The position numbers and the translations under genes are program-made. Under the pieces are notes generated by a model. It saw only the letters and a program-made list of their open reading frames with translations, was not told where the DNA came from and did not search any database. DNA of 64,000 nt from Saccharopolyspora sp. NFXS83 (GTDB taxonomy: Bacteria; Actinomycetota; Actinomycetes; Mycobacteriales; Pseudonocardiaceae), in assembly GCF_026241095.1 (NCBI RefSeq), contig NZ_JAPFGB010000025.1, positions 2,097 through 66,096 on the forward strand, written 5' to 3'. Below are positions 18,545-35,500 of this stretch, in pieces. Within the stretch, counting starts at the first letter, position 1. Every line of letters starts with the position of its first letter.

Positions 18545-18571
18545 CGACGTCAGGTGGCAACGCCAGGTTCC
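18545..18571 (-). promoter_or_regulatory. ECF (SigM-like) promoter of ESX module A
   Basis: On the minus strand GGAAC (18567-18571) and CGTCG (18545-18549) are 17 bases apart, a full match to GGAAC-N16-18-CGTCR, the form I recall for the mycobacterial sigma factor SigM. The -10 box is 48 bases before the ATG of the 103-residue gene. Confidence 0.65.
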
Positions 18572-18635
18572 TCACCCTGGCAGCTGAGCGCGGCGAACGG
18601 GCCGAATCCGATGATCTCCTTGCATACGCGAAGGT

Positions 18636-18844
18636 TCAGCGCGGCCGATACGGGCCCTGCGGCGGGTAGGGCTGCGGCATCTGCTGCTGCGGGAACGGCG
18701 GACCGCCCGGCCCCCGCGGATATCCGGGCGGCGGCCCGTACTGCGCGGCGGCTCCGCCGAGCTTGACCTTGACGACCAGCGCGGCGGTCACAGCGCCGGC
18801 ACCCCACCGACGAGCAGGCTCGCCAGCAACGTGAACACGTTCAT
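18636..18844 (-). CDS. Small membrane protein split by an apparent -1 frameshift
   Basis: An ATG frame (18844-18788) encodes 18 residues, MNVFTLLASLLVGGVPAL, and stops. A GTG frame (18791-18636) overlapping that stop as GTGA encodes 51 residues that begin VTAALVVKVKLGG and end in a Pro/Gln/Tyr-rich tail (QQQMPQPYPPQGPYRPR). Reading one base back at the join gives one continuous membrane helix of about 25 residues and a 69-residue protein. Either two coupled peptides, a programmed shift, a mutation or a sequence error would explain this. It lies in a run of small membrane genes after glmM. Function unknown. Confidence 0.45.
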
Positions 18845-18952
18845 GAGTCCCCGCCTTCGCCGCGCACAACGTATCGGAGGGCGCACACGGACCACCGGCG
18901 GCTCAACGCGAGCTCAGGACCCGCGGAATCGCCGGTGGCAGGAGGTTCCGGC

Positions 18953-19054
18953 TCAGATCGAGATGATCAGCATCGTGAGGATCACCGCCAGCGCCATCCC
19001 GGCCAGCGGCAGCAGCACGATGACGAACAGATCCGCGAACCGCTCCCCGCGCAT
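18953..19054 (-). CDS. 33-residue single-pass membrane peptide
   Basis: A short frame from ATG at 19054 encodes MRGERFADLF followed by a hydrophobic helix (VIVLLPLAGMALAVILTM) and a short end. It starts 13 bases after the 54-residue membrane gene, and GGAG lies immediately before the ATG, which is closer than ideal. The amphipathic positive-inside start and the context support it, but such short frames can arise by chance. Function unknown. Confidence 0.4.
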   Translation of the reverse strand: MRGERFADLFVIVLLPLAGMALAVILTMLIISI

Positions 19055-19067
19055 CTCCGGCCCCCGC

Positions 19068-19232
19068 TCAGCCGTGCCTGCGGGAACGGCGGTTGACCCA
19101 CCACTGGCCGCCGTCGTGCACGGCGTTGAGGGCCTTCGTCCCGGCTATGCCGAGAGCGGAGAGCACGAGGACGGCAGCGACCAGGCCGATGGCGACAAGC
19201 CCGACGAGAACGGCGACAACGATGGCACCCAT
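19068..19232 (-). CDS. 54-residue small membrane protein
   Basis: From ATG at 19232: a long hydrophobic segment (about residues 3-31, IVVAVLVGLVAIGLVAAVLV) and a basic tail with GGQWWVNRRSRRHG. It is a likely single-pass protein with a cytoplasmic C-terminus. The gene lies 51 bases downstream of glmM; the hairpin GTGAG...CTCAC (19233-19248) just before the start could end glmM transcripts or affect translation. Not recognised; plausible members of the same run lie at 18953-19054 and 18636-18844. Confidence 0.55.
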   Translation of the reverse strand: MGAIVVAVLVGLVAIGLVAAVLVLSALGIAGTKALNAVHDGGQWWVNRRSRRHG

Positions 19233-19283
19233 GTGAGCACCGTCTCACACTTTGGCCGATCAAGGGAGATTCAGATCACAAGA

Positions 19284-20618
19284 TCACCGGATGGCAGCAA
19301 CGACTTCGGCCAGACGCCGCGCCGTGGCGTCGGCGACCTCTTCGCTGGGCGCCTCCACCATCACCCGCACCAGCTGCTCGGTACCGGACGGGCGCAGCAG
19401 CACACGGCCCTGCTCACCCAGCTCGGCCTCGGCCGCGGCGACAGCCTCGGACACCTCCGGCGCCGCCACGGCCAGCGAGCGGTCCACGACCTTCACGTTC
19501 ACCAGCACCTGCGGCAGCCGGACCATCGTGGTGGCGAGCGCTGCGAGCGTCTCGCCCGTCGCGGCCATCCGCCCCATCAGGCGCAGCGCCGTGAGCACGC
19601 CGTCCCCGGTGGTGGCGTGGCCGGGCAGCACCACGTGACCGGACTGCTCGCCGCCCAGCGAGAACCCGCCGGCGCGCAGCTCCTCCAGCACGTAGCGGTC
19701 CCCGACCTTCGTGGTGCGCAGCTTCACGCCGTGGTCGCGCATCGCCAGGTGCAGGCCCAGGTTGCTCATCACCGTCGCGACCAAGGTCTCGTCGGCGAGC
19801 TCACCGGTCTCCTTCATCGCCACGGCCAGGATCGCCAGGATCTGGTCCCCGTCGACGACCTCGCCCGCCGCGTCCACCGCCAGGCAGCGGTCCGCGTCGC
19901 CGTCGTGCGCGATGCCCAGGTCGGCGCCGTGCTCCAGCACCGCCGCCCGCACCTTGTCGAGGTGGGTCGATCCCACGCCGTCGTTGATGTTGAGCCCGTC
20001 CGGGTCGGCGTGCAGCGCCACCACGTCGGCGCCCGCCCTGCGGTACGCCTCCGGACCGGCGCCGGAGGCCGCGCCGTTCGCGCAGTCCACCACGACCCGG
20101 ATGCCGTCCAGCCGCTGCGGCGTCGCCACCAGCAGGTGGTCCACGTAGCGCTGCACCGAATCCGGCACGTCCCGCACCCTGCCGACGTGCGACCCGGTGG
20201 GCCGCTGCACGTCCTCGTGGAGCCGCGCGGCGATCTCGTCCTCCACCGCGTCCGGCAGCTTGTGACCACCGGCGGCGAACAGCTTGATCCCGTTGTCGGG
20301 CATCGGGTTGTGCGAGGCGGAGATCATCACGCCGATGTCGGCACCCAGCTCGCCCACCAGGTAGGCCACCGCGGGCGTGGGCAGCACGCCGACCCGCAGC
20401 ACGTCCATGCCCGCCGAGGTCAGGCCCGCCGTGACCGCCGCCTCCAGCATCTCGCCGCTGGCCCGCGGGTCGCGGCCCACCAGCGCCACCCTGCGACGCG
20501 AGTCGTCCCGGTCGTAGAGGACGCGGGCCGCCGCAGCCGCCACGGACAACGCCAGTTCCGGCGTCAGGTCCGAGTTCGCGAGGCCACGCACTCCGTCGGT
20601 GCCGAACAGCCGGGACAT
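19284..20618 (-). CDS. glmM: Phosphoglucosamine mutase
   Basis: 444 residues from the ATG at 20618 ([12 protein letters not shown], the usual N-terminus). It converts glucosamine-6-phosphate to glucosamine-1-phosphate for UDP-GlcNAc synthesis, after GlmS. The phosphoserine loop is [15 protein letters not shown] near residue 102, the metal loop AHDGDADRC, the sugar loop GGEQSGH, and the phosphate-binding [12 protein letters not shown] is near the C-terminus. AGGAGG lies 11 bases upstream. It follows rplM-rpsI but a strong terminator intervenes, so it has its own promoter. Confidence 0.97.
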
Positions 20619-20675
20619 GTGCAGCGAATCCTCCTGGATCGACGGCAGAGCCATGCCAGGCCCGAACCCGGCATA

Positions 20676-20731
20676 CAAAAAGACCACGGGAGCAGCCCCG
20701 GCGTCGCGCGGACGCCACGGCTGCTCCCGTG
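20676..20731 (-). terminator. Rho-independent terminator of rplM-rpsI
   Basis: On the minus strand a 13-base perfect stem (CACGGGAGCAGCC and its complement, 20685-20697 and 20719-20731) is followed by GTCTTTTT. It lies 15 bases beyond the rpsI stop and is the clearest terminator in the window. Confidence 0.85.
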
Positions 20732-20745
20732 AATCGTACGAAAGG

Positions 20746-21329
<584 letters not shown>

Positions 21330-21333
<4 letters not shown>

Positions 21334-21779
21334 TTCTCGACCTTCGCGTTGATCTGGTACGGCTGCGGGTTCTGGGCCTCGTGCGGGTGCTCCGGGCCGG
21401 CGTAGACCTTGAGCTTCTTGCCCATGGCCCGGCCGAGCTTGGTCTTCGGCAGCATGCCCTTGATGGCCTTCTCCAGCACCCGCTCGGGGTGCTGGGAGTC
21501 CAGAACCTGCCCCAGGGACTGCTTGCGCAGACCGCCCGGGAAGCCGCTGTGCCGGTAGTGGAACGCCTGGTCGCGCTTCTTGCCGGTCAGCGCCACCTTC
21601 TCAGCGTTGACGATGACGACGAAGTCGCCGGTGTCGAGGTGCGGGGCGTAAGTCGGCTTGTGCTTGCCGCGCAGCAGCAGGGCGGCCTGGGTGGACAGCC
21701 GACCGAGCACCACGTCCTCGGCGTCGATGACATGCCAGGCGCGGGTCACCTCGCCGGCCTTAGGGCTGTACGTGCGCAC
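21330..21779 (-). CDS. rplM: Ribosomal protein L13 (uL13)
   Basis: 149 residues from a GTG start with GAGG seven bases upstream; the frame stays open for 72 further codons upstream, but those do not resemble L13. The core motifs [33 protein letters not shown] and the [11 protein letters not shown] signature are present. It is the first gene of the rplM-rpsI operon, the order found in nearly all bacteria, and is preceded by a long leader. Confidence 0.97.
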
Positions 21780-22197
21780 GGATCTACCTCGTCGTCGTTC
21801 GCGTCGGAATCTCGGTGCGGACCCCGTGTGTTCCTCTGGGGAGCCCATCGGAACCGTGCCGGGTCGGAAGCCCCGATCTGGCCGGGGAACCGGCACGTCC
21901 TGGGTGTCACCAGAGACCTGTGGCCCCGGTTCGGCCTCGGCTCTCGCCGGGCGTTCCGTTGGGCCGGTCACCGCTCCAACACCGCAGTCGCGCACCGCAC
22001 AACAAACAATCAGGGTACTCGCTGGCGAAAAGACCCACCGATACGGGGTCCCCCTCGCCGGGAAACGCCGTCGACGTGTCTAGTCGCCGAGTGGATGCTA
22101 CCGGGCGCCTCGGACGCGCCGGACACCCGCCCACCGGAACACCACCGACCCCGGGCCACGGAGGCGCACGGGGTCGGCGACGAGCACGGCGGGAAGA
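21780..22197 (-). other. Long leader region of rplM
   Basis: No gene is evident in this stretch. On the minus strand TACCCT (22012-22017) is a possible -10 box, which would give an mRNA leader of about 225 bases. Within it, GTGCCGG (21856-21862) pairs with CCGGCAC (21890-21896) around an inner CCCCG/CGGGG stem, a plausible structured element. Some bacteria regulate the L13-S9 operon through such leaders, but no match to a known leader family is claimed. Confidence 0.35.
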
Positions 22198-22485
22198 TCA
22201 GCCACCGAAGCGGCCGGCGTTCTTCGCCTCACCGGCCTGGTAGGACTCGTTCGCGGCGTTGACGGCCATGCCCATCTTCGCGGCGATCTCGATCATGTTC
22301 TGGGCGGCCTTGTCCCACTCTTCCTGCGCGGCGCGGTACGCCTCCTGCGCCTGGCCTTCCCAAGTGCTGACCAGCGGCTTGAGCATGTTCTCCAGCTCGT
22401 CCAGCTCGGCCTGGATCTTGGTGGCGGCGCCGCCCAGGTCGTCGGCGGCCTGGCTCAGCTGGCCGAAATCAACCCGAATTTCCAT
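22198..22485 (-). CDS. esxT: WXG100 protein, EsxT-like ESX-4 substrate
   Basis: 95 residues of the WXG100 family: two helices with the turn WEG at residues 42-44 (STWEGQAQEAY), and a C-terminal YxxxE (YQAGE), the type VII export signal. GAGGGG precedes the ATG. The gene lies between rplM and a second WXG100 gene, the same order as esxT in the mycobacterial ESX-4 locus, so the name rests on synteny. It is expected to form a heterodimer with the 103-residue partner encoded just upstream and to be exported by the EccBCDE-MycP machine. Confidence 0.9.
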   Translation of the reverse strand: MEIRVDFGQLSQAADDLGGAATKIQAELDELENMLKPLVSTWEGQAQEAYRAAQEEWDKAAQNMIEIAAKMGMAVNAANESYQAGEAKNAGRFGG

Positions 22486-22546
22486 GGTGAAGTCCCCTCA
22501 CGTGAAGTGGTCGGAAGAAGGTGGAGAAAGAACGTCGGAGGCGAGC

Positions 22547-22858
22547 TCAGCCGCCGAGCATGCCCTCGATCTTGGAGATCTCCTGAGCCTGCTCCTCTTC
22601 GTTCTGGGTGTACGCCTGACCCGAGGACTGGATGTTCTCGCTGATCTCGCCCAGCTTCTGGTTGATGGTCTTGGCGTTCTCGTTGAACGCGTCCATCAGG
22701 CGGCGGAAGACGTCGGACGCGCCGCCCTTCCAGGTCCCCAGGACCGGAGAGATCTGGCCCTCCAGCGTGCTCACCGCGGTCTCGACGTTGCCCCGAACCT
22801 CTTCGACCTGGCCTGCGGCCTTCGCCATCAGGTCCGCGTCGGTACCCATCCCGCTCAT
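22547..22858 (-). CDS. esxU: WXG100 protein, EsxU-like ESX-4 substrate
   Basis: 103 residues with WKG at 43-45 (GTWKGGASDVF) and a YxxxE near residues 82-86 (YTQNE). AAGGGGG lies before the ATG. It is the first gene of the two-gene WXG100 operon (61 bases before the esxT-like gene), next to the Hsp70-like type VII gene, as esxU is in mycobacteria. A full GGAAC-N18-CGTCG promoter lies 43 bases upstream. Partner and export role as for the downstream gene. Confidence 0.9.
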   Translation of the reverse strand: MSGMGTDADLMAKAAGQVEEVRGNVETAVSTLEGQISPVLGTWKGGASDVFRRLMDAFNENAKTINQKLGEISENIQSSGQAYTQNEEEQAQEISKIEGMLGG

Positions 22859-22900
22859 AGGTGGCCCCCTTCATTCGTTGCTCGAAGATCGATGAACCTA

Positions 22901-22928
22901 CGACGCAGACATTGCCACGTTCGGTTCC
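22901..22928 (-). promoter_or_regulatory. ECF (SigM-like) promoter of the WXG100 pair
   Basis: Minus-strand GGAAC (22924-22928) and CGTCG (22901-22905) with an 18-base spacer. It matches the recalled SigM consensus exactly, and esxT/esxU are reported SigM targets in Mycobacterium tuberculosis as far as I remember. The -10 box is 42 bases before the esxU-like ATG. Confidence 0.7.
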
Positions 22929-23146
22929 GCCCTGTCCCGGCTTTTCCGCAAACGGTTGCGCCTGTGAACGAAAATCGCGGAACTCGCTGGTCAAAAGCCA
23001 TTAGCGAATGCGAAACGAACGCGAACAACGCGCATGGGCGAGCTCGGCGAACTCGATTCGCAAAAGCGATTTGCACCCGCTATCGATTCTTCGTTTCCCG
23101 CCCGCGGGACTCCGCCGCGAAAAGGGCACGCACCGGCGCGCCGGGT

Positions 23147-24967
23147 TCAGCCTCCGACGGCGAGCGAAGAGATGACCTGCTCGCAGGCGGACTCGACCTG
23201 CTGCTTGCCCGCGCCGGTGTAGCGGCACCCGACGCTGACCTGGAAGTGCCCCCGGTGCAGCACGAACCACTCCACCGTCGCCCTCGGCAGCGCCTCCCGG
23301 TAGTACACGACGTCCTCGCCCGCGTACGGGAGCCGCTCGTCGAAGTCCGAGAACCGGCCGCCCTCCGCGTTCAACCGGTCGTACTGGGCGCGCAGATCGG
23401 CGACGGCGCGGGAGCGGCCGTCCTCCGTGTCGTAACCGAGATCGCCCTGCTGCACCAGGATCAGGTCGTCGCCCCCGGTCGGCGGCGCGATCACCGTCTG
23501 CCACAGCGCCGGATCGCCGCCGGTCTGCTGCCAGTCGCCGGGGTAGTCGAAGGCGTACTCGTACTGCGCGACGTGGCGGGTCGGCTGCTCGGCCTGCCCG
23601 CCGACGGCCTGGACGACCAGCAGCACCGCCACGATCACCACGGCGAGCGCGACCACCGCTCCACCGGCCAGCACCCACGGCCGCGCCGACCGCGGTGGCG
23701 GGGCGGGGGTGTGGAACACCGGGCGGGTCCGGTCGCTGCCGCCGATGACGACGGTCGAGGCCCGGCTCAGCGAGTCGTCCGCCGGGGCCGCCGCGGGTTG
23801 GCGGGCCCAGGTCTGCTGCGGCCCGCCCGCCACGGGGCGGCGCACGGTCGGCATGTTCGTGCCCCGGTGCCCGCCCGCGGGAGCGAGCCCGCCGGTGCGC
23901 TCCGGGTCGAGCCGCACCGCGCGCAACGCGCCCCGCGCCACCACCGTCTCCGGTTGGTCCAGGGTGGTCGGCAGGATGCCGGTGCGTTCGTGGATCAGCC
24001 TGGCCACCAGCGGGATCCGGCTGGAGCCGCCGACGAGGAACACGCCCGCGAGCCGCTCCCTCGGCACCTGCCCGTCGTGGAGCGTGGCCGTCACCAGGTC
24101 CGCGGCCTTCGCCAGCGGCGCGGCCACCAGCCGTTCCAGGTCGGCGCGGGTGACGTGCGCATCGGAGAACGGCGGCGGCATGGGCACGTCGGTGTAGGTG
24201 TGCCGGGACAGCGTCTCCTTCGCGCCGCGCACGTCCTGGCGCAGCACGCGACGCCGGCGCCGGTCGGCCATCTCCCTGCCGTCGACGAGCTTGTGCCACG
24301 CGGCCGGGTCCATTCCGGACACGACGGCTCCGATGTGCTCCAGCAACGCCTGATCGATGTCGGCGCCGCCGAAGTTCGGGTCGCCCTTGGTCGCCAGCAC
24401 CCGGAACGCCTGGCCCTGCTTGCACACGACGCTCGCGTCGACGGTGCCGCCGCCGAGGTCGAGCACGGCCAGCGCGCCCCCGTCGGGCAGGCCGTGCCCG
24501 GCGGAGTGGAACACCGCGGCGGCCACCGGTTCGGGGACCAGCACCAGTTCCTTCGCCAATCCGGCGGCGGCTTGGCGCAGCACGCCCGCGCGGACGGCAC
24601 CCCAGTCGGCGGGATGGGTGAGCACGAGCAGGTCGATGCCTGCGCCGCCCGCGAAGCGGCGGGCCTCGCCCACCGCGCGCCGCAGCACGGAGCGCACCAC
24701 GTCGCCGACGCGCAGCACGCTGCTGCCGAGCAGCAGCTCGCCTTCGTCGATGCGGCGCTTGGGGTGCGGTTCGAACCGGGACGGGTCGACGGCCGCCTGC
24801 CGCTCCGCCTCGTGGCCGACGAACAGGGTGCCGTCGGCCGCGGCGAACACCGCCGACGGCACCAGCGGCTGGCCGTCGACGACGACCACCTGCGGTTCAC
24901 CACCGCCGACGGAGACCACGGTGCACGTGCTTGAGGTGCCGAAGTCGACCGAGACGTGCAGGGACAC
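23147..24967 (-). CDS. Type VII secretion-associated Hsp70-like protein (Rv3446c family)
   Basis: 606 residues in three parts. Residues 1-370 form an Hsp70/actin-like ATPase with DFGTSSTC, the phosphate loop LDLGGGTVD and LVGGSSRIP; the peptide-binding domain of DnaK is absent. A linker leads to one membrane helix (about 425-450). The last 150 residues are an extracytoplasmic domain of the type VII-associated Rv3446c family. In mycobacterial ESX-4 the same gene lies between the esx pair and eccC. The likely role is an ATP-dependent accessory of secretion on the inner side with a sensor or scaffold outside; this is inferred. A degenerate SigM-like site lies 66 bases upstream. Confidence 0.88.
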   Translation of the reverse strand: MSLHVSVDFGTSSTCTVVSVGGGEPQVVVVDGQPLVPSAVFAAADGTLFVGHEAERQAAVDPSRFEPHPKRRIDEGELLLGSSVLRVGDVVRSVLRRAVGEARRFAGGAGIDLLVLTHPADWGAVRAGVLRQAAAGLAKELVLVPEPVAAAVFHSAGHGLPDGGALAVLDLGGGTVDASVVCKQGQAFRVLATKGDPNFGGADIDQALLEHIGAVVSGMDPAAWHKLVDGREMADRRRRRVLRQDVRGAKETLSRHTYTDVPMPPPFSDAHVTRADLERLVAAPLAKAADLVTATLHDGQVPRERLAGVFLVGGSSRIPLVARLIHERTGILPTTLDQPETVVARGALRAVRLDPERTGGLAPAGGHRGTNMPTVRRPVAGGPQQTWARQPAAAPADDSLSRASTVVIGGSDRTRPVFHTPAPPPRSARPWVLAGGAVVALAVVIVAVLLVVQAVGGQAEQPTRHVAQYEYAFDYPGDWQQTGGDPALWQTVIAPPTGGDDLILVQQGDLGYDTEDGRSRAVADLRAQYDRLNAEGGRFSDFDERLPYAGEDVVYYREALPRATVEWFVLHRGHFQVSVGCRYTGAGKQQVESACEQVISSLAVGG

Positions 24968-25032
24968 CCACTACTCCTTCGCGCACCGCCGCGTGGTCGT
25001 GGCGGTGTCTTCGCCGGGCCGCTCTCGCGGCG

Positions 25033-25060
25033 GGACGAACCGTGCGCGCACCCAGATTCC
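25033..25060 (-). promoter_or_regulatory. Degenerate SigM-like promoter for the Hsp70-like gene
   Basis: Minus-strand GGAAT (25056-25060) and CGTCC (25033-25037) with an 18-base spacer: two mismatches from GGAAC-N16-18-CGTCR. It is in the right place (66 bases before the ATG), but the match alone is not convincing. Confidence 0.25.
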
Positions 25061-25560: not shown

Positions 25561-26407
25561 GTGCAGCGCCCTCCCAGCACTCGTACCTGCGCGCATAAGC
25601 CGCGACGAGCTCTATTGAACAATTCGGGCTCAGCGCCGTCCGGCACAGCCTAGAACGAGCGTGCTGGAAGGGCGTTACGTCTTCCGGGTCATCCAGGAAA
25701 GCCCCGCAGCGGCGCTGTTCCAGATGTACGATCGGTCTGCTCCGGAGGAACTCCAGCAGCAGGAAAGGGCCGTCCATCCCGGTGTGCGCGCCCGCCGTGA
25801 ACGGCACCACCTGCACGGTGACGTTCGGTGCTTCGCAGGCGTGCAGCACGGCGCGCAGCTGGGCGCCCATCACCGCGGGCCCTCCTACCGCGCGGCACAG
25901 CGCGGCCTCGTCCAGCAGAACCAGGTAACGCACCGGATCCCCGCGGTTCAGTATTCGCTGGCGGGACAGGCGCACCGCGATGAGGCGGTCCAGCTGTTCG
26001 ACGGCGACATCGGTGGCGGCGAACAAGGCGCGAGCGTAATCGGGAATCTGCAGCAGGCCCGGAATGAGGACTTCGGAAACTTCGGTGATGCGCACCGCGC
26101 GCTTTTCCGCATCGATGAGTTCGGTGAGCTGCGTGGGCAGTCCGATACCGGATTCCCACCACACCGGCTCGTCGATGTCGTACGCGAGCCGCAGCAGTCG
26201 GTCCCGGTTCGCGCCGCGCACGTCGACCGCATCCAGGAATGCTCGCACGGAATTCGGCGCGAGGCGGCGGCGCGCCGTCTCCATCCGGCTGACCTTCGCC
26301 TCCGAACAACCGATCAGATCGCCGAGCTGGCGCAAGGTCAGACCGGATTGTTCGCGGGCGACGCGCAATTCCTTTCCTAGCGCTCGGGCTCGGGGGGTAT
26401 CCGGCAT
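25520..26407 (-). CDS. XRE-type regulator with DUF5753 domain
   Basis: 295 residues. An N-terminal helix-turn-helix (about residues 8-65, LTLRQLGDLIGCSEAKVSRM) is followed by the DUF5753 domain (about 95-280, beginning near LIPGLLQIPDYARALF). This is the standard partner of DUF397 proteins, some of which control sporulation or antibiotic production in Streptomyces. It seems leaderless: TAGGGT ends seven bases before the ATG. It is transcribed away from eccC's terminator and could control neighbouring ESX-4 genes, but nothing shows that directly. Confidence 0.9.
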   Translation of the reverse strand: MPDTPRARALGKELRVAREQSGLTLRQLGDLIGCSEAKVSRMETARRRLAPNSVRAFLDAVDVRGANRDRLLRLAYDIDEPVWWESGIGLPTQLTELIDAEKRAVRITEVSEVLIPGLLQIPDYARALFAATDVAVEQLDRLIAVRLSRQRILNRGDPVRYLVLLDEAALCRAVGGPAVMGAQLRAVLHACEAPNVTVQVVPFTAGAHTGMDGPFLLLEFLRSRPIVHLEQRRCGAFLDDPEDVTPFQHARSRLCRTALSPNCSIELVAAYARRYECWEGAAHGDGTLAEIELQR

Positions 26408-26414
26408 GGCCCAC

Positions 26415-26509: not shown

Positions 26510-26528
26510 CCACGTGTTCACCCGCCGA

Positions 26529-29500
26529 TCACTCCGGCTGGATGTGCGCCGTCTGAATCAACTGCGGACCGCCGCGCAAGGTGCGGCTGACCATCATGCC
26601 GCGGCCCGTCGGCAGCTGCCGCGACTTGACGTTGCCGACGAGCTGGCCGTCGTCCTTGTTCGCGCTCATGGCGAGACCGGGCGCCGAGACCTCCCGCATC
26701 TTGCCGATGATCGGCTCGAACAGCGCACGGCTGGCGTTGCCCGAGTTGCGGGCGATCACCATGTGCAGACCCACGTCGGAGGCCTGCGCGACGTACTCCG
26801 CCAGCGGCGCCAGCGGGTTGTTGCCCTGGGGCGAGATGAGCTCGTAGTCGTCGACCACGATGAACAGGTCCGGCCCCTTCCACCAGGAGCGGTTGCGCAG
26901 CTGGTCCTGGGTGACGTCCGGGCCGGGCATCCGCTTCTTCAGCGCGGCGCCCACGTCGCGCACGTTGTTCTTGAGCTGGTCGACGCTGACCGCGTACTCC
27001 ATCAGGTGCGGGGTCTGCACGACGCCCAGCATCGTCCGCCGCACGTCGACCAGGAGGATCATCGCCTCCTGCGGCGTGTAGCGGGTCGTGATGCCTTGCA
27101 CGATGGTGCGCAGCAACGAGGTCTTGCCCGACTCGCGCTCGCCGAACGCGTAGAAGTGCGGCTCCGCCTTGAAGTCCAGGTAGACCGGGTTGAGCCCGTC
27201 CTCGTTGATGCCGATCGGCACCAGGTGCGGCCGGGGCTGCTGCTCCTTGGCGGGCAGCTGCTCGTAGGGCAGCAGTTCCGGCAGCAGCCGGACCTGCGGC
27301 GCGGGCCGCCCCTTCCAGGAGCTCTTGACCCTGTTGACCAGGTCGGCGACGCCGTCGGCGAGGTCCTCGTTGTAGAGCTCCCACGCGGGCCGCGGGGTCG
27401 GCGAGCCCTCAGCGGGGCGTCCTTCCTTGGCGGCGCGCTCGTGCTCCTCGACGCGCGCGGCCTCGGCCTTGACGCGCTCGCTGAGCTGCTCGCTGTCCAC
27501 TCGGGGCAGCGCGATGAGGAAGTGCAGCCCCGACGGGTGCAGGCCGCGGCCGGGACGGCCGACCGGCACGATCTTGGCGATCTTGCGGTCGAACTCGGAC
27601 TCGCCGGGGTCACCGAGCCGCAGCTCCATCCGGGTGCCCAGCGCGTCCTTGAGCTGGGGGCGGATGCCCGCCCACCGGTTCGCCGCGAGGAACACGTGGA
27701 CGCCGAACGCCAAGCCCTGCTGGACCAGGTTGTTGATCTCCGGCTCCAGCGATTCCAGTTCGGACTCGGCGCGGAACGCCTCCCAGCCGTCGATGATCAG
27801 GAAGACGTCGCCGTACGGGTCGTTGGTGATCTCGCCGCGGCGCTTGCGGTTGCGGAAGTCGGCCATCGAGTCGATGCCCGCCTCCTGGAACCGGCCTTCG
27901 CGCGCCGCCACCAGCGACTTGACCTCGGCGATGGTGCGACGCACCGTGTCCAGGTCACGACGGTTGCCGTAAGCACCGACGTGCGGCAGGTTCCGCAGCG
28001 CCGAGAGCGACCCGCCACCGAGGTCGATGCAGTAGAACTGCACCTCCTGCGGCGTGTGCGAGAGCGCCATCGAGGTGATCAGGGTCCGCAGCAGGTTCGA
28101 CTTGCCGGTCTGCGGCCCGCCGACGACGGCCCCGTTGCCCTCGGAACCGTTGGCGAACTTGAGGATCAGGTGGTCCTGGCGCTGGTTGTAGGGCACGTCG
28201 ACCAGGCCGATCGGCACCTCCAGCTTGCCGGCGCCCGCCGATCCGGCCGCGGTGTAACCGCGGTCGTCGGTGGCCTGCAGCGGCGGCAGCAGACCGTCCA
28301 GCGTGGGCGGCGCGTCCAGCGGCGGCAGCCACACCGAGTGCGCGGGCGGCCCCTGGCCCTCGACCTTCTTGATCACCAGCTGGAAGTCGGTGGGAGCGAG
28401 GTCGTCCTTCTTCTCCTTCGGCTCCTCCTCGACCACCGGCGTCTCGGGTTCCGGGGGCTTCTCGACGAAGTCCGGGATGAAGAAGCGCGGGCGCTTCTCC
28501 CCCGTCACCGGCGACGCGGCCTGCCCCATCGGGCGCCGACCGCTGGTCTGGTGCATGTGGCCGGACACGTAGGAGGCGCGGAAGCGCTCCATGCCCTCCG
28601 GGTGCTTGAGGTAGCCGTGCCCACCGGAGGCGGGCAGGTCCGCCGCGTCCGGGATGCCGATCGCGGCGCGGGATTCGGAGGCGTTGAACGTCTTCAGACC
28701 GATCCGGTAGGACAGGTGCGCGTCCAGGCCGCGCAGCTTGCCCTCCTCCAGCCGCTGGGAGGCCAGCAGCAGGTGGACCTGCAGCGAACGACCCACACGA
28801 CCGATCTTCGCGAACAGGTCCGCGAACTCCGGCTTCGCCTGCAGCAGCTCGCCGAACTCGTCGATGACCACGAACAGCGCGGGCAGCGGTTCCTGGGCGT
28901 TGGCGTCACCGGCCTCGTAGAGCTTCCGGTAGTCCCAGACGTTCTTGGCCTTCGCCTTGTCCAGCACTTCCTGCCTGCGGTTGGTCTCCCCCGCCAGCGC
29001 GTCCTGCATGCGGTCGACCAGCGTGGAGTCGTCACCGAGGTTCGAGATGCTCGCCGACACGTGCGGGGCGGTCTCGAAACCGTTGAACGTCGCACCGCCC
29101 TTGAAGTCGACGAGCACGAAGTTCAGCGACTCGGAGGAGTGCGTGGCCAGCAGGCCCAGCACGATGGTGCGCAGGAACTCGGACTTGCCGGAACCGGTCG
29201 CACCGATGCACAGGCCGTGCGGGCCCATGCCGTCGGAGGCCGTCTCCTTGATGTCCAGGTGCACGATCTCGCCCTGCTCGCCGGGGCCGATCGCGACCCG
29301 GTACAGGTCCTCCTTCGGCCGCGGGCGCCAGGCCTCGTTGAGGTCGAAGGTGACCGGGTCACCGGCGAGGCCGAGCTGCTCGATGTAGTTGAGCTGGGTG
29401 GTCAGCGGCTCGACGGCTCCGCTGTCCTCGACGGCCGAGGCACCGGCCGCGATGCGGTACGGCGACATCAGGCGGGCCACCGCGGTGGCCTCCTCCATGG

Positions 29501-30656
29501 TCAGCGAGTCCGGCTCGCCGAACCACTCCACGCTGCCCGGACCGCGGGCGCCGATGCGGTCGGCCTCCACCACGATGCGCATGCCGCGGCGCTGGGTGAT
29601 CTGACCGAGCACATCGGACAGGTCGATCATCGTGACGCCGGCGAGTCCACCTTCGACGATCAGCTGCTCCTCGCGGCTGATCTCGGCGTCGTCCAGCAGG
29701 ATCACGATGTGCGGCTGGCCCTCCGGCGGGGCCGCGTTGCGCTGGAACCGGGCGCGCTCGGCGAGCTGCTCGGCGAGCATCTCCTCGATGCCCCACAGCG
29801 AACCGGCCATCAGGCGCATCGGGCCGATGCCGTCGGTCTCGGTGGGGTGCTGGGCGTGCGGCAGCCACTTCACCCAGTCCCACTCGGTGCGGGACCGTCC
29901 GCTGGAGGCGATCGCGATGATCACGTCGTTCGGCGAGTGGAAGGTGGCCAGCTGGGTCAGCATCGCCCGCGCGAGCCCGCGGGTGAGCGCGCGCTCCCCC
30001 TGCAGGCCGACGGCGGCGAAACCGCGCAGCGAGGTGGCGATCGGCAGTTCCGACACCAGCGAGTGGGCGCGCACGAAGCGGCGCAGCGCCAGCGTGGTGA
30101 TCGGCTCCAGCTCGTCGACCGGGCCGGTCTGCGGCGGCACCAGGCGCGTCTCCAGCCGCTGCGAACCGCGGCCCACGCGGACCTGGCAGAAGTCGTTGTC
30201 GTTCGGACGCCGCTCCCACATCCGCCGCGTGCCGTTGGCGACGGACCACAGCGTCTGCGGGTCGGGGTGCACCCACTCGCGCGCGAGCCGCTGCTCGTCG
30301 GCCGCTTCGCGGGCGCGGTCGCGCATCTGACCGAGGTAGCGCAGGTAGTCCTTGCGGTCCTCGTTCATCTCGGCCTTCTTCTGGCCGCCGTCCTTGCCGC
30401 CGCCCGCGATCATCCCGAAGGTCGACACGAGCATCATCATCGGCATCATCATCATCATCGGGTTGTCCTTCGCCCGCTGAAGCATGAAGACCATCATCCC
30501 GAGGGATGCCACGATCATGACGCCCGGAAGCACCTTCTGGACGATGTTGCCCGGAATCACCCGGGGGATCTCGGGTGGCGGTTCGAGGTGCACCTCGCCG
30601 CCCGGAGGCCTCGGAGCGGCCATGCGTGGCGTTCGCTTGAACTGCAGCGTGCTCAC
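26529..30656 (-). CDS. eccC: Type VII secretion FtsK/SpoIIIE ATPase EccC
   Basis: 1375 residues from a GTG at 30656 (STLQFKRTPRM); EccCa and EccCb are fused in one chain. Two N-terminal membrane helices (about 35-60 and 65-90, with a run of methionines) precede a DUF domain and three ATPase domains. Their P-loops are GATGSGKS near residue 489, GGPQTGKS near 850 and GERESGKT near 1176. EccC is the motor that binds the export signal of Esx substrates, usually through the last ATPase domain. It is divergent from eccD, as in the ESX-4 locus of mycobacteria. Confidence 0.96.
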   Translation of the reverse strand: MSTLQFKRTPRMAAPRPPGGEVHLEPPPEIPRVIPGNIVQKVLPGVMIVASLGMMVFMLQRAKDNPMMMMMPMMMLVSTFGMIAGGGKDGGQKKAEMNEDRKDYLRYLGQMRDRAREAADEQRLAREWVHPDPQTLWSVANGTRRMWERRPNDNDFCQVRVGRGSQRLETRLVPPQTGPVDELEPITTLALRRFVRAHSLVSELPIATSLRGFAAVGLQGERALTRGLARAMLTQLATFHSPNDVIIAIASSGRSRTEWDWVKWLPHAQHPTETDGIGPMRLMAGSLWGIEEMLAEQLAERARFQRNAAPPEGQPHIVILLDDAEISREEQLIVEGGLAGVTMIDLSDVLGQITQRRGMRIVVEADRIGARGPGSVEWFGEPDSLTMEEATAVARLMSPYRIAAGASAVEDSGAVEPLTTQLNYIEQLGLAGDPVTFDLNEAWRPRPKEDLYRVAIGPGEQGEIVHLDIKETASDGMGPHGLCIGATGSGKSEFLRTIVLGLLATHSSESLNFVLVDFKGGATFNGFETAPHVSASISNLGDDSTLVDRMQDALAGETNRRQEVLDKAKAKNVWDYRKLYEAGDANAQEPLPALFVVIDEFGELLQAKPEFADLFAKIGRVGRSLQVHLLLASQRLEEGKLRGLDAHLSYRIGLKTFNASESRAAIGIPDAADLPASGGHGYLKHPEGMERFRASYVSGHMHQTSGRRPMGQAASPVTGEKRPRFFIPDFVEKPPEPETPVVEEEPKEKKDDLAPTDFQLVIKKVEGQGPPAHSVWLPPLDAPPTLDGLLPPLQATDDRGYTAAGSAGAGKLEVPIGLVDVPYNQRQDHLILKFANGSEGNGAVVGGPQTGKSNLLRTLITSMALSHTPQEVQFYCIDLGGGSLSALRNLPHVGAYGNRRDLDTVRRTIAEVKSLVAAREGRFQEAGIDSMADFRNRKRRGEITNDPYGDVFLIIDGWEAFRAESELESLEPEINNLVQQGLAFGVHVFLAANRWAGIRPQLKDALGTRMELRLGDPGESEFDRKIAKIVPVGRPGRGLHPSGLHFLIALPRVDSEQLSERVKAEAARVEEHERAAKEGRPAEGSPTPRPAWELYNEDLADGVADLVNRVKSSWKGRPAPQVRLLPELLPYEQLPAKEQQPRPHLVPIGINEDGLNPVYLDFKAEPHFYAFGERESGKTSLLRTIVQGITTRYTPQEAMILLVDVRRTMLGVVQTPHLMEYAVSVDQLKNNVRDVGAALKKRMPGPDVTQDQLRNRSWWKGPDLFIVVDDYELISPQGNNPLAPLAEYVAQASDVGLHMVIARNSGNASRALFEPIIGKMREVSAPGLAMSANKDDGQLVGNVKSRQLPTGRGMMVSRTLRGGPQLIQTAHIQPE

Positions 30657-30976
30657 CGGAGGCAGCAACCTTTCAAGTCGTAGCAATGTGGAGCGGCGGG
30701 CTCAGTAGCGACGCCCCTACTGCCGCAGGCGGCATTCTGTACCGTCCACGGCACTGACTTCAGCAGGACCCAGGGCGTTCCGGCTCGTCCGTGACCAACC
30801 GGATATGAACCCGATGGCACGAGTTCGACCAAACCCTTCACCCCTGCGTGGTCGGTGCGGCCATACTAGGGGCGCTCTTCGGCCGGGCGGGCCGCTTTCG
30901 GCGAGAAAAGCCGCACTTGGCCGGATCGAGGCGCAGAAGGACCCAAATGCAAGGACCTAGGAAGTAGGGGGCCTCA
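30657..30976. other. Divergent eccC/eccD promoter region
   Basis: No gene in these 320 bases. For eccC, minus-strand GGAAC (30777-30781) and AGTCA (30755-30759) are 17 bases apart, one mismatch from the SigM-like form found upstream of the substrate genes. For eccD, CATACT (30862-30867) is a possible -10 box with no good -35. The eccC leader would be about 95 bases. Confidence 0.4.
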
Positions 30977-32392
30977 GTGGCGACCGGGACCACGGTGTTC
31001 AGCCGCGTGACAGTGGTGGCGCCGAATACTCGCATCGACTTGGCGCTGCCCGCCGACGTCGCGGTGGCGGACTTGCTGCCGATGCTGCTGGACATGGCCC
31101 GCGAGGGCAGCGTCGACGGCGGTTCGCGACACGGCGGCTGGTGCCTGGCGAAGCTCGGCGACGAGCCGTTGGACAACAGCCAGACGCTGGCGTCGCTGGG
31201 CATCGTGGACGGTGATCTGCTCCAGCTGCGGCGTCGTTCGGACAATCCGCCCCCGCCGCTGTACGACGACGTCGTGGACGCGCTCGCGGAGGCCGAGCCG
31301 GGCAGCTACCGGCCTTGGACGAAGGAGACCGCGGCCAAGATCGGGCACACCGCGGGTGTGCTCGGGCTCGTCGCGGCGGCGGCTTCGTTAGGACTCGCCG
31401 GTCAGTTCGGCGGCATCCTGTTCCACATCGTCACCGCGATCGTGGCGGTCGTGGTGGCGGTGTTCGCCACCGGCATCGGCTCGGTCGTGACGCGCGCCTA
31501 CGGCGCCGCGACGACCGGCACCGTGATCGCCGGGGCGGGCGCGTTGCCGATGGCCTTCGTGGCCGGGCTCAACGCGGTCCCCGGCAACAACCTGCGCCCG
31601 GCGCTGCTGCTGGCCAGCGCGCTGGTCCTGATCTTCGCCGCGATCTCGCTGATGGTGATCGGCACCGGCATCGTGACGTTCATCGCCGCGGCCACCGTGT
31701 CGGCGTTCGCGGTGCTCGCGTTCATCGCCACCCTCCTGCTGCCCAGCGGTGCCAGCGCCGCCGGTGTCGCGGCGGGCGCGGGAGCCGTCGGGCTCGCCGG
31801 GATCTCGCTGCTGCCCAGGCTGACCATCCAGCTCGCGAAGCTGCCGCTGCCGCACGTGCCGGGCAACGCCGACGACCTCAAGGAGGACGAGGGCTTCCCG
31901 GACTACCGCATGATCGAGCGCCGCACCGGCCTCGCCCACCAGTACATGACCGGCCTGATCATCGGCTGCGGCCTCACCGCCGCGCTCGGCGCGATCCTCG
32001 CCGTGACCGTCCCCGGCGGCGGAGTCTGGGGCGCGCTGTACGCGATCGTCGTCGCCGCGGTGCTGCTGCTGCGCGGACGCAACTACGCCAACGGCAGCCA
32101 GGCCGTGGCACTGCTGCTCAACGGTCTGCTCGCCGCCGTCGGCGTCGCCGCCGGGCTGCTGGTGCAGACCGCGCTGGTGCCGGTCGCCGTGGCGTGGGTG
32201 TTCCCGCCGCTGGTGCTGCTCGGCGTGCTGGCGCTGGTGTTCGGCGTGGTGTTCCCGAACCGCCGGTTCTCCCCGGTGCAGCGCCGCATGGTGGACATCC
32301 TGGAGGCGGTGCTGATCGCATTGGTGCTGCCGCTCGCGCTCGGCGTCATGGATCTGTACATGACCATCCGCGACCTCAACATCTCTCTCTGA
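30977..32392 (+). CDS. eccD: Type VII secretion integral membrane protein EccD
   Basis: 471 residues from a GTG with AGGGGG upstream. A ubiquitin-like cytoplasmic domain (about 5-88, VFSRVTVVAPNTRIDLALP) is followed by eleven hydrophobic segments from residue 122 on, the standard EccD layout. EccD forms the channel-like barrel of the ESX inner-membrane complex with EccB, EccC and EccE. It heads a two-gene unit with mycP, 11 bases downstream, and diverges from eccC. Confidence 0.95.
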   Translation: MATGTTVFSRVTVVAPNTRIDLALPADVAVADLLPMLLDMAREGSVDGGSRHGGWCLAKLGDEPLDNSQTLASLGIVDGDLLQLRRRSDNPPPPLYDDVVDALAEAEPGSYRPWTKETAAKIGHTAGVLGLVAAAASLGLAGQFGGILFHIVTAIVAVVVAVFATGIGSVVTRAYGAATTGTVIAGAGALPMAFVAGLNAVPGNNLRPALLLASALVLIFAAISLMVIGTGIVTFIAAATVSAFAVLAFIATLLLPSGASAAGVAAGAGAVGLAGISLLPRLTIQLAKLPLPHVPGNADDLKEDEGFPDYRMIERRTGLAHQYMTGLIIGCGLTAALGAILAVTVPGGGVWGALYAIVVAAVLLLRGRNYANGSQAVALLLNGLLAAVGVAAGLLVQTALVPVAVAWVFPPLVLLGVLALVFGVVFPNRRFSPVQRRMVDILEAVLIALVLPLALGVMDLYMTIRDLNISL

Positions 32393-32403
32393 GGGCGAAT
32401 TCG

Positions 32404-33795
32404 ATGCGCTTCAACTCGCGTGGCGGGAAGCTGCGGTGCGGCCTGGCGTTGATCTCCGTGCTCGGCCTGACCGCGCTGGGCCCCGCCCAGCCGGCCCTGG
32501 CCGACGAAGTGGAGTTCCAGCCGCCGCCGCTGTCCCCGGCGACTCCGCCGTCCGGACCGCTGTCGGTGAGCGGCAACTTCGAGCCGACCCAGGGGTGCAT
32601 GCAGGCCAACACCAGCGGTGCCTCCGTCGAGGAGAAGCCGTGGAGCCAGCTCGTGCTCGGCTTCGAGCAGGCGCACGAGGAGGGGTTGACCGGCGCGGGC
32701 AAGACGGTCGGTGTGATCGACACCGGGGTGAACCCGCATCCTCGGCTCAACCTCAGCGGCGGAGGCGGCAGCGCCGTGCCGGACGGCGGGGCGAACTCGG
32801 ACTGCGACGGCCACGGCACCGTGGTGGCCGGGATCATCGCGGCCTCGGAGGATCCCAGCACCGGTTTCGTCGGGGTGGCCCCGCAGTCGGCGATCATGTC
32901 GCTGCGCCAGTCGTCGGCGCTGTTCCAGGACAAGGCGCAGAACAAGACGATCGGCGACACCCGGACGATGGCGCAGGCCATCCAGTACGCGGCTGATCAG
33001 AATGTCGACGTCATCAACATCTCGCAGTCGTCGTGCCAGTCGATGGCCGCGGCCATGGCCGACGGCGGTGGCTACAACAACCTGCTGTACAACGCCGTCA
33101 AGAACGCCTACGACAAGAACATCGTCATCGTCGCGGCGGCGGGCAACACGCAGGACAGCTGCCAGAAGAACCCCAGCGGCAACCCGACGACGGCCGTGCT
33201 GCCCGCGTGGTTCGACGAGTACGTGCTGACGGTCGGTTCGATCGGGCAGCAGGGGCAGCCGTCGGAGTTCACCGTTCCCGGCCCGTGGGTGGACGTCGCG
33301 GCACCGGGCGAGGACCTCGCCGCGCTCGACCCCGGCCGGGGCGGCAGCGGCGTGATCAACCAGCTCGCCACCGGCCCCCAGGGCGAGCCGGGGCCGATCC
33401 AGGGGACCAGCTTCGCCGCGCCCTACGTGTCCGGGCTGGCAGTGCTGATCAAGGAGAAGTTCCCCGAGCTGTCGGCCAAGGAGGTCATGGATCGGATCGA
33501 GAAGACCACGCTGAGCCCCGGCGGCCCGAACGGGCGCAACGACATCGTCGGGTACGGCATGATCGATCCGATGGCGGCGCTGAGCGACATCGTGCCCGCC
33601 GAGCACGGCAAGCAGCCCGCGCCGGCGAAACCGGCCCGGCTCGGCGCGGACGCCATCCCGCAGACCGACTGGGCCGCGATGACGATCGCGGTCGGCGGCT
33701 CGCTCGGCGGCATCGGCGCGGTCCTGTTCACCGCGTTCCTGCTCAACGCCGTCCGCACCGTCCGCGCTCGCCGCGCGGGTGACGACGAGGACTGA
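32404..33795 (+). CDS. mycP: Type VII secretion mycosin (subtilisin-like protease)
   Basis: 463 residues. A signal peptide (about 1-33, ending QPALA) precedes an S8 serine protease domain with the triad Asp106 (VGVIDTGVN), His137 (DCDGHGT) and Ser336 (GTSFAAPYVSG). A proline-rich linker and a C-terminal membrane helix (about 422-450) anchor it facing out. Mycosins stabilise the ESX complex and clip some substrates. It is 11 bases after eccD, with GAGGG upstream, and is followed by a strong terminator. Confidence 0.96.
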   Translation: MRFNSRGGKLRCGLALISVLGLTALGPAQPALADEVEFQPPPLSPATPPSGPLSVSGNFEPTQGCMQANTSGASVEEKPWSQLVLGFEQAHEEGLTGAGKTVGVIDTGVNPHPRLNLSGGGGSAVPDGGANSDCDGHGTVVAGIIAASEDPSTGFVGVAPQSAIMSLRQSSALFQDKAQNKTIGDTRTMAQAIQYAADQNVDVINISQSSCQSMAAAMADGGGYNNLLYNAVKNAYDKNIVIVAAAGNTQDSCQKNPSGNPTTAVLPAWFDEYVLTVGSIGQQGQPSEFTVPGPWVDVAAPGEDLAALDPGRGGSGVINQLATGPQGEPGPIQGTSFAAPYVSGLAVLIKEKFPELSAKEVMDRIEKTTLSPGGPNGRNDIVGYGMIDPMAALSDIVPAEHGKQPAPAKPARLGADAIPQTDWAAMTIAVGGSLGGIGAVLFTAFLLNAVRTVRARRAGDDED

Positions 33796-33809
33796 GGCCG
33801 CGAACGACG

Positions 33810-33849
33810 AAGGCCCGGTGGAGTCCCCTCGGACTCCCCCGGGCCTTTT
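33810..33849 (+). terminator. mycP terminator, probably bidirectional
   Basis: AAGGCCCGGTGGAGTCC pairs with GGACTCCCCCGGGCCTT (one or two mismatches) around CCTC, followed by TTTT on the plus strand. It lies between the convergent mycP and module B genes. Confidence 0.8.
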
Positions 33850-33876
33850 CGCGCGCTCAGGCGGAAACCCGAGCCG

Positions 33877-35061
33877 CTACTCCTGCTGCTTCTTCTTGGT
33901 GTCGCCGAGGACCGGTTCGACCGCGGGCGCCGGGGCGCCGAACAGTTCGGCCGGGTCCGCTTTGGCGCGGGGGCGTTTCGGGCGGCGCCGCCCGCCCGCT
34001 CCCGCTCCGGCCATGCCCGCCATCGGCATCATGCCGCCGACCATGCCGCCCCCGGCCATCGCGCCGCCGGTGGCCGCCGCCGTGGGACCGGCTGCGGGGA
34101 CCGCGTCGGCGCCGTTCGTGGCGTCCGGATCGTCGGCCTGCGCGGCGGTCGTGGCGGCGGGGCCGGGAGCCCCTTCAGCGTCCGGCACCGCTTCCACCGA
34201 CGGCCGGGATTCCGCGACGGCCGGGGCGGAGTGCGCCGGTGCGACCGGTTCCGAGGTCCCGGGGGATGACGACGCCCCGGCGAGATCCGTCCACAAAGGA
34301 CCACCTGTCACCGCGGCGAGGCCGGGCGCGGACGGCAGCGCCTCCTCCTGCTCGGCGCAGAACCTGCCGAAGGCGGCCATCGTCTCGTTGACGGACTCCG
34401 CCAGCCCGGCCGCGGGACGCCGGATCCGCATGAGCTGTTCGCGGGCCGCAGGCAGGTCGGAGTCCGGTTCGCGCAGCGCCACGTGCACCGGCCCGGCCAC
34501 CGAAGCGATGAGCTCCCGCATCTCCCGGCCCAGCACCCGCAACGACTCGGCCGTGGCGTCCAGCGCGTCGGCCAGCGCGGTCACGGCGTCCGCCAGCTCG
34601 CCGCCGCGCGCGCCGATCCGGCGCACCTGCGCGACGAACGCGTCGGAGTCCGCCCCGTCCCAGCAGCCGTCGATGCCGCTGACCTGATCGGACACCAGGG
34701 ACATGCTCGGGTGCAGGACGGACGCCGCCGCGCGCCAGGATTCGGCCGCGGGCCGCAGTTCCTCCCCCGAGCCGGTGGCGACGGCGAACTCGGGGCCGAA
34801 CGGATCGGGCACTTCGAGGATTCCGATGGCCTGGCGCAGGAATTCCAGCTGCACCACCACGTCCTGCCGGTCGATCTCGAACGCGGGCTCAGCGGGCGGC
34901 GTCGCGGTCTCGGCTTCAGCGCCCGGCGGCTCGGCCGGAACCGCCGACGCGGAGCCGCCTTCCGCGTTCTCCACCGCGGGCGTCTGTTCCACCGCCGCGC
35001 GAACCGTCCACAAGTCGTTCGACTGCAACATCCCGGAGTCCCCCGAATCCGCCGGCGCCAT
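33877..35061 (-). CDS. WXG-domain type VII secretion protein (module B)
   Basis: 394 residues from the ATG at 35061, which overlaps the preceding stop codon as TGATG; GAGGAGG lies seven bases upstream. An Ala/Pro/Glu-rich N-terminal 60 residues lead to a helical domain with WDG at 134-136 (GIDGCWDGADSDAF), then an Ala/Pro-rich linker, a Gly/Met-rich segment (GGAMAGGGMVGGMM) and a basic tail with RRRPKRPRAK and DPAELFG. The arrangement parallels the 895-residue protein of module A, including the Gly/Met-rich part and the charged tail with Leu-Phe. Probably an ESX-4 substrate; function unknown. Confidence 0.78.
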   Translation of the reverse strand: MAPADSGDSGMLQSNDLWTVRAAVEQTPAVENAEGGSASAVPAEPPGAEAETATPPAEPAFEIDRQDVVVQLEFLRQAIGILEVPDPFGPEFAVATGSGEELRPAAESWRAAASVLHPSMSLVSDQVSGIDGCWDGADSDAFVAQVRRIGARGGELADAVTALADALDATAESLRVLGREMRELIASVAGPVHVALREPDSDLPAAREQLMRIRRPAAGLAESVNETMAAFGRFCAEQEEALPSAPGLAAVTGGPLWTDLAGASSSPGTSEPVAPAHSAPAVAESRPSVEAVPDAEGAPGPAATTAAQADDPDATNGADAVPAAGPTAAATGGAMAGGGMVGGMMPMAGMAGAGAGGRRRPKRPRAKADPAELFGAPAPAVEPVLGDTKKKQQE

Positions 35062-35366
35062 CACGAGTCCTCCTCGCGGCCCAGTTCCGCGGCGTGGTCC
35101 TCGTCGTCGGCCGCGTGCCGCGCGAGCACCGCGGCGAGCTCGTCGCCCGCGTCCGCGACGGCGTGCCCGGTCCCGAAGATCCGCTGCCGCAGCGCCCCGA
35201 CCAACCGGTCGTAGGGTTCCGCGGCTTCCGCGCCCCAGGCACCGAAATCGGCACCGGTCGGCGCCGCGCCCCGTTCCCGTCCTGCTTCCCCGACCGCGGA
35301 TCCGGCCGCCCGCAACGCTTCCGCGTGCCGCGCCAGCTCCTCGGTCTCGATCCGGATCCCCGCCAT
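35061..35366 (-). CDS. Small ESX secretion protein, EspC/WXG100-like (module B)
   Basis: 101 residues; GGAGG lies six bases before the ATG. All-helical and alanine-rich, with DFG at 40-42 and Tyr52, the same DFG-x9-Y as the module A protein (18185-18496) and a similar N-terminus (MAGIRIETEEL against MAGFGTNSGEL). A C-terminal YxxxD/E signal is absent; the end is acidic (GREEDS). It is translationally coupled to the 394-residue WXG-type protein, with which it probably pairs. Confidence 0.78.
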   Translation of the reverse strand: MAGIRIETEELARHAEALRAAGSAVGEAGRERGAAPTGADFGAWGAEAAEPYDRLVGALRQRIFGTGHAVADAGDELAAVLARHAADDEDHAAELGREEDS

Positions 35367-35424
35367 CCGGCACCTCCCAGTCGTCCTCGGCCAAGTCGTC
35401 CCCGCCCCCGAGGGCCGGAAAGCG

Positions 35425-35461
35425 GTCCGCCCGCAGATCCGGAGTGGACCTGCGGGCGGAC
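35425..35461 (-). terminator. Hairpin between eccB and module B
   Basis: A perfect 12-base stem (GTCCGCCCGCAG and complement) with a 13-base loop and no T run. It may end eccB transcription. It also lies just downstream of the module B promoter, so module B mRNA would carry this stem at its 5' end. Confidence 0.5.
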
Positions 35462-35473
35462 GCACCATCCCTG

Positions 35474-35500
35474 GGACGGGAACCGAGGCGCAACGGTTCC
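35474..35500 (-). promoter_or_regulatory. ECF (SigM-like) promoter of ESX module B
   Basis: Minus-strand GGAAC (35496-35500) and CGTCC (35474-35478) with a 17-base spacer, one mismatch from GGAAC-N16-18-CGTCR. It starts ten bases after the eccB stop, which suggests module B is expressed separately from eccB. Confidence 0.6.

Follow-up and report, generated by a model that had tools for sequence, protein, structure and literature searches.

Sites resembling SigM promoters precede the substrate genes, not the machine genes, of an ESX-4 locus in Saccharopolyspora

The 64,000-nucleotide (nt) stretch of the soil actinomycete Saccharopolyspora sp. NFXS83 analysed here (contig NZ_JAPFGB010000025.1, positions 2,097 to 66,096; hereafter the window) carries an ESX-4 type VII secretion locus in which three promoter-like sites lie immediately 5' of genes of substrate type, namely esxU-esxT and two further units that we call modules A and B. 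Very probably, these sites are promoters of one extracytoplasmic function (ECF) sigma factor, most likely SigM, for the substrates, with the machine transcribed separately; SigM appears to control the proteins thought to be exported by ESX-4, not the machine. This interpretation is well supported at the sequence level. The initial annotation had proposed three matches to the SigM consensus, GGAAC-N16-18-CGTC, with spacers of 18, 17 and 17 nt, and all three exist at the places it gave, on the minus strand and in intergenic DNA:

22902..22928, minus strand: candidate SigM-type promoter of esxU-esxT (GGAACC, spacer of 18 nt, CGTC), 43 nt 5' of the ATG at 22858
18546..18571, minus strand: candidate SigM-type promoter of module A (spacer of 17 nt), 49 nt 5' of the ATG at 18496
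35475..35500, minus strand: candidate SigM-type promoter of module B (spacer of 17 nt), 108 nt 5' of the ATG at 35366, flanked by the eccB stop and a hairpin

Distances were counted from the last motif base to the start codon, and the base 3' of CGTC is G for esxU and module A and C for module B. One further match within the span of the three sites (25747-25774, plus strand) lies antisense inside a helix-turn-helix gene.

The sites are conserved in relatives. In 38 fetched ESX-4 loci, relatives of the three first genes were located and 260 nt upstream of each were searched with spacers of 16-19. The strict motif was present at 26/28 EsxU-like genes, the two without it in this interval being those of L043 and L047; with the window included, every esxU gene examined from Pseudonocardiales carries it (26/26), as does the esxU of a Rhodococcus (L044). 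It was likewise found at five of the six orthologues of module A gene 1 and at 11/14 copies of module B gene 1. The three module B loci missed at first have a gene start farther from the motif, and a search that sets out from the eccB stop finds the motif 3' of eccB in all 14 loci with module B. A second match after eccB in the Rhodococcus locus, within a gene and on the opposite strand, is probably due to chance. GGAAC, a C as sixth base (45/45) and CGTC are kept, and the spacers at modules A and B vary; as the search pattern itself fixes GGAAC and CGTC, the information within the hits comes from the sixth base and the spacers alone. Kept -35 and -10 elements with changing spacers are as expected of a promoter. 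On this evidence, esxU-esxT would be the constant target, module B a constant one in Saccharopolyspora and module A a variable one. The proposal that both modules are new members of the regulon is supported for module B (14/14 loci) and for module A in part, as 8/19 module A-like units in relatives carry the motif under the N16-18 rule.

Within ESX-4 loci, the motif is restricted to substrate units. We examined 31 named Pseudonocardiales loci (~0.70 Mb), with genes predicted by a codon-score caller that had the window as its training sequence; L043, L044, L047, L053, L055, L058 and L059 of the 38 loci were left out as other lineages, paralogous systems or partial matches. The strict motif with spacers of 16-18 occurred within 160 nt upstream of 48/527 called genes, 47 of which are first genes of substrate units by our reading, while the remaining one, in L050, ends a lipoprotein-WXG unit and was counted as a miss. 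By BLAST, the 48 comprise 25 esxU, 12 genes like module B gene 1, six like module A gene 1 and five others, of which four (L037, L038, L045 and L051) resemble A- or B-type first genes by sequence and place. None of the 154 machine 5' ends, window included, had the motif within 300 nt (29 EccB, 32 EccC, 32 EccD, 32 MycP and 29 EccE), nor was it found at that distance before the Hsp70-like gene (28 cases), the gene after eccE (29), glmM (23), rplM (25) or rpsI (15). The claim that one factor drives the substrates apart from an always-present machine is supported in its first half; the second, that the machine is always present, would follow from the missing motif and has to be qualified, since deletion of sigM in Mycobacterium tuberculosis is reported to lower all esx-4 operon genes 2-4-fold (PMC10117145).

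The SigM orthologue that the initial annotation expected is present. Scans of the genome returned 25 sigma-type matches, 24 of them above the family cut-off and not all ECF, among which the gene at contig C2:118258-118866 (minus strand) scores 285.5 bits against the SigM equivalog NF007225 and exceeds the cut-off of 190 by 95 bits. Its surroundings (murJ, a kinase-like gene, sigM, a putative anti-sigma gene, trxB, trxA) agree with this identification. An orthologue was found in 26/26 genomes searched, with 71-91% identity in 24 Pseudonocardiales, 60% in Mycobacterium sp. E1214 and 57% in a Rhodococcus, and the promoter-recognition segments are near-identical to those of the Mycobacterium protein. 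The strict motif recurs at the 3' end of sigM, 5' of the putative anti-sigma gene, in the own copy (L099) and in 24/24 other Pseudonocardiales (L242-L265), several Actinopolyspora having a different spacer; in the Rhodococcus (L267) it lies between the same two genes. The putative anti-sigma gene, so called from its position (a search of NCBIfam up to 1e-5 gave no match), would be under SigM control, a probable negative feedback loop. Among the 25 sigma-type loci, a sense GGAACC-N-CGTC immediately 5' of a neighbouring gene occurs only at sigM; in L082 a GGAACT site lies 474 nt 5' of the sigma-type match, and L060, L070 and L076 have antisense sites. The trxB gene beside sigM is preceded by GGAACA-N17/18-CGTT in this genome and in 19/24 Pseudonocardiales, with the same -35 and another -10, a promoter that we take to be SigR/SigH-like. 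Promoters of that type combine a GGAAC/T -35 with a GTT -10; they share the -35 pentamer GGAAC with the sites described here and differ in the -10, CGTT before trxB versus CGTC.

We also compared the sites with those of Mycobacterium. Among the matches listed, 30 loci from 26 genomes were taken (L327 was set aside as unreadable) and the genes sorted by eye into 18 esxU-type, eight esxB-type and three others. GGAACC-N17/18-CGTC starts within 120 nt upstream of 14/18 esxU-type genes and, in the same interval, of 0/8 esxB-type and 0/3 other genes. That mycobacterial ESX-4 esx genes are SigM targets, as the initial annotation had stated, agrees with the published record: overexpression of sigM in M. 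tuberculosis is stated to raise esxU 1800-fold, esxT 70-fold, esxF 60-fold and esxE 100-fold (PMC8593097, citing Raman 2006), and mating of M. smegmatis is described as inducing esxUT, apparently via SigM (PMC10906988). The Mycobacterium regulon (M. tuberculosis and M. smegmatis) resembles the present one in its orthologous sigma factor, its esxU-esxT target and the same GGAACC-N17/18-CGTC element. It differs in that SigM is reported there to drive esxE-esxF beside cpnT as well and to affect other esx-4 genes (PMC8593097, PMC8092274, PMC10117145), whereas here the additional targets would be modules A and B together with some unlinked WXG/EspC units, and the element is absent from the machine genes but present before the putative anti-sigma gene. 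ESX-4 has already been reported in Pseudonocardiales and was described as the ancestral type VII system, its function being called undetermined (PMC4791881); none of the publications listed by our literature searches describes, in its title or abstract opening, a SigM/ESX-4 substrate regulon in this order. We regard the system as the known mycobacterial regulon, apparently extended beyond mycolic-acid bacteria with added members and a probable feedback loop, and not as a new kind of system.

The locus was recognised as ESX-4 by family matches of EccB, EccD, EccE, EsxU and EsxT together with an Rv3446c-type domain. Its substrate-type genes are:

22547..22858, minus strand: esxU, WXG100 protein of 103 amino acids (aa), PF06013 at 65.2 bits
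22198..22485, minus strand: esxT, WXG100 protein of 95 aa, PF06013 at 71.2 bits
18185..18496, minus strand: module A gene 1, EspC-family protein of 103 aa, PF10824 at 24.6 bits (cut-off 23.5); WXG100 at 24.3 bits, below the cut-off of 27.3
15498..18185, minus strand: module A gene 2, 895 aa with a Pro/Gly-rich part, weak PF06013 match at 16.6 bits, below cut-off
15003..15470, minus strand: module A gene 3, 155 aa, without family match
35061..35366, minus strand: module B gene 1, 101 aa, without Pfam match, with a homologue in 14 Saccharopolyspora loci
33877..35064, minus strand: module B gene 2, 395 aa with a WXG100 domain, PF06013 at 27.8 bits (cut-off 27.3)

For module B gene 1, neither EspC, WXG100 nor any other Pfam family was found up to E 0.1. 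Judged by the WXG100 and EspC domains, modules A and B would be cargo exported by ESX-4. The remaining genes, all without the motif upstream (within 300 nt for eccC), are:

26529..30593, minus strand: eccC (machine), named by reading and conserved position, without a family scan
30977..32392, plus strand: eccD (machine), TIGR03920
32404..33795, plus strand: subtilisin-like gene taken as mycP, named by reading and conserved position, without a family scan
35510..37036, minus strand: eccB (machine), TIGR03919 (longer start 37129); start 37036 set by the gene caller
37379..38569, plus strand: eccE (machine), TIGR03923 (longer start 37211); start set by the gene caller
23147..24967, minus strand: Hsp70-like protein with a C-terminal TIGR03931 domain (T7SS_Rv3446c)

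The locus adjoins genes read as rplM, rpsI and glmM, an order that we presume to be the same in M. tuberculosis. The locus is like known ESX-4 loci in having esxU, esxT, an Rv3446c-type protein, eccB, eccC, eccD and mycP beside rplM-rpsI-glmM, and it differs in having eccE, which to our knowledge the M. tuberculosis ESX-4 lacks, and two extra substrate-type modules with the same promoter type. EccC relatives share 72-85% identity in Saccharopolyspora and 73-75% in Actinopolyspora and Halosaccharopolyspora. The Hsp70-like gene lies ~2-7 kb farther from eccC in L026, L028, L029, L030, L035, L039 and L050 than in the other loci, and the insert between the two genes in L050 contains a small-protein, lipoprotein-like, WXG-type unit.

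Two further elements accompany the sites, one in the esxU spacer and one in the leader of module B:

22909..22917, minus strand: TGGCAATGT within the esxU spacer, form TGGCANNNT conserved at esxU in 25 related loci
35425..35461, minus strand: hairpin with 12-bp arms, 13 nt 3' of the module B motif and within the predicted SigM leader

The spacer element is present in 26/27 esxU promoters, with its three N varying, and is possibly an overlapping housekeeping extended -10. The hairpin begins 11-14 nt after CGTC in all 14 module B loci and in the window, with arms of 12 bp in the window and 13-16 bp in relatives; the window's module B leader folds at -64.6 kcal/mol (z -3.9). Loci L046 and L048, in which no module B was detected, have a comparable hairpin 3' of eccB, so that it is probably the terminator of eccB, and being inside the leader it would have to be crossed by SigM transcripts of module B.

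Substrate-type genes unlinked to the locus carry the motif in some cases. Scans of the genome gave 21 WXG100 and 10 EspC matches, which we grouped into 18 units. Outside the window, the strict motif lay within 90 nt of the first gene (starts as read) in 4/15 units, at distances of 36 (L003), 62 (L009), 41 (L014) and 85 nt (L020), compared with 1/254 genes in a background of 380 kb from two contigs of the same genome (Fisher P = 3e-5). Two of the four (L003 and L020) are conserved in relatives. For the L003-type unit, 3' of a gene read as purD, the motif occurs in 7/11 relatives, plus S. rosea L217 and the own copy. For the L020 type, it occurs in three of the four close orthologues (53-60% identical), at 33-39 nt, and in 5/30 loci examined from the family, the others being distant YbaB-type paralogues. 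The L009 family (own copy on C34) has it in 5/30 loci examined, and among the 27 family matches of L014 (C25) given as loci, a strict site lies within 400 nt in five, namely L283, L288, L294, L295 and L302. A conserved TGCTANNGT 5' of the lipoprotein-WXG unit was observed in L283-L294 and is likely a housekeeping promoter of these L014 relatives. In S. rosea, where 30 of 32 WXG100 matches were grouped by us into ~22 units, six units have the motif 32-87 nt upstream: esxUT, module A, module B and the unlinked L217, L223 (with the site within the end of the preceding gene) and L240. L238 has one strict match ~200 nt upstream, which was not counted, and the other S. rosea loci examined were without the motif, including two more clusters with EccB-like neighbours.

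Several observations weigh against SigM control of the substrates. Module A relatives are without a site in 11/19 cases, including all six Actinopolyspora, one motif-lacking unit (L032) having a spacer-19 match 28 nt upstream, outside the N16-18 rule. Four of the 18 Mycobacterium esxU-type genes have no strict motif. The single Mycobacterium examined showed no motif at its sigM locus, and in Pseudonocardiales this motif lies mostly within the sigM coding sequence, so that it could be conserved partly for the protein. The strong hairpin after the module B promoter may stop the module B transcript. Two unlinked units have sites that most or all of their nearest relatives lack: the four closest to L009 (74-77% identical) have none, and among the 12 closest to L014, all Saccharopolyspora, only L283 and L288 have one within 100 nt and L284 reads CGTG where CGTC is expected, which weakens L014 as a candidate member of the regulon. 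By raw count the motif is not enriched in the window (six matches with spacers of 16-19 vs 5.5 expected from shuffles), the number being at chance level. Across the 6.9-Mb genome there are 623 sites vs 278 for the reversed pattern, or 111 vs 33 for GGAACC with spacers of 17-18. Of these 111, 100 were listed and all of the listed ones but C56:136892 were classified. Of the 99 classified, 69 lie within called genes and 30 between genes, and a gene start within 150 nt is found in sense at 14 and antisense at seven, a modest bias. Given the intragenic majority and this ratio, most sites in the genome are probably not promoters.

These counts invite the explanation that the motif is simply frequent in GC-rich DNA, the three sites having no meaning. 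With a GC content of ~71%, the claim can indeed rest on position and conservation only, and it is there that chance becomes barely credible as an explanation: the sites keep the same place in distant species despite changed spacers, and the 47/48 substrate genes stand against 0/154 machine ends and a background of 1/254. The comparison that the initial annotation had named as able to refute its proposal, namely whether the motif is just as common in random intergenic DNA, was made in part, before ordinary genes (1/254) and machine genes (0/154), where the motif proved rare or absent against 26/26 at esxU, and the proposal withstood it. A more serious, although still unlikely, explanation is that the sites are real ECF promoters read by another ECF factor of the same specificity, alone or jointly with SigM. 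The genome's 25 sigma-type matches leave room for one, and GGAAC is not a unique -35, as trxB shows; the pairing of GGAACC and CGTC, however, is found at the sigM locus itself in all 24 Pseudonocardiales and before 14/18 mycobacterial genes of the esxU type, published SigM targets, and no other sigma locus of this genome has the element immediately 5' of its partner gene. We consider it quite improbable that esxUT is transcribed mainly from an overlapping housekeeping promoter TGGCANNNT, to which SigM adds, with modules A and B having other main promoters. The spacer element is nearly invariant outside its three N (26/27), module A is often without a SigM element and the L014 relatives keep TGCTANNGT, but in these 26 the supposed -10 begins with C, a weak housekeeping form, and modules A and B hold no comparable conserved element in their spacers.

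If SigM is the factor, a signal would release it from its anti-sigma factor, and RNA polymerase with SigM would bind the three sites and start all three substrate units, esxU-esxT and modules A and B, together. The genes of the membrane machine (eccB, eccC, eccD, eccE and mycP) have no such promoter and would be transcribed separately, and through the promoter before the putative anti-sigma gene SigM would shut itself off. Such a promoter separating cargo from machine, seen in Saccharopolyspora and elsewhere in the Pseudonocardiales, in one Rhodococcus and at most of the esxU-type genes examined from Mycobacterium, provides a testable cargo list and a named regulator. It also suggests that SigM control of ESX-4 cargo predates the mycobacterial lineage, in which case pathogenesis is unlikely to have been its first purpose. 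More tentatively, and with slightly less than even confidence, we propose that the SigM promoter is an ancient code common to Mycobacteriales and Pseudonocardiales that marks ancestral ESX-4 cargo genome-wide, with units gained or lost via the promoter, the same switch acting on the anti-sigma gene and the terminator in the module B leader as a second gate. If so, the motif could predict ESX-4 substrates from sequence alone.

GGAACC sites also precede non-secretion genes in this genome (e.g. L104, L105, L132, L143 and L170). On contig C2, at 228-236 kb (L104, L105 and L211), two GGAACC-N-CGTC sites lie amid GTPase-like genes, 43 and 52 nt 5' of genes that encode an acidic protein of 238 aa and a protein of 113 aa, respectively; these two genes are possible further members of the regulon.

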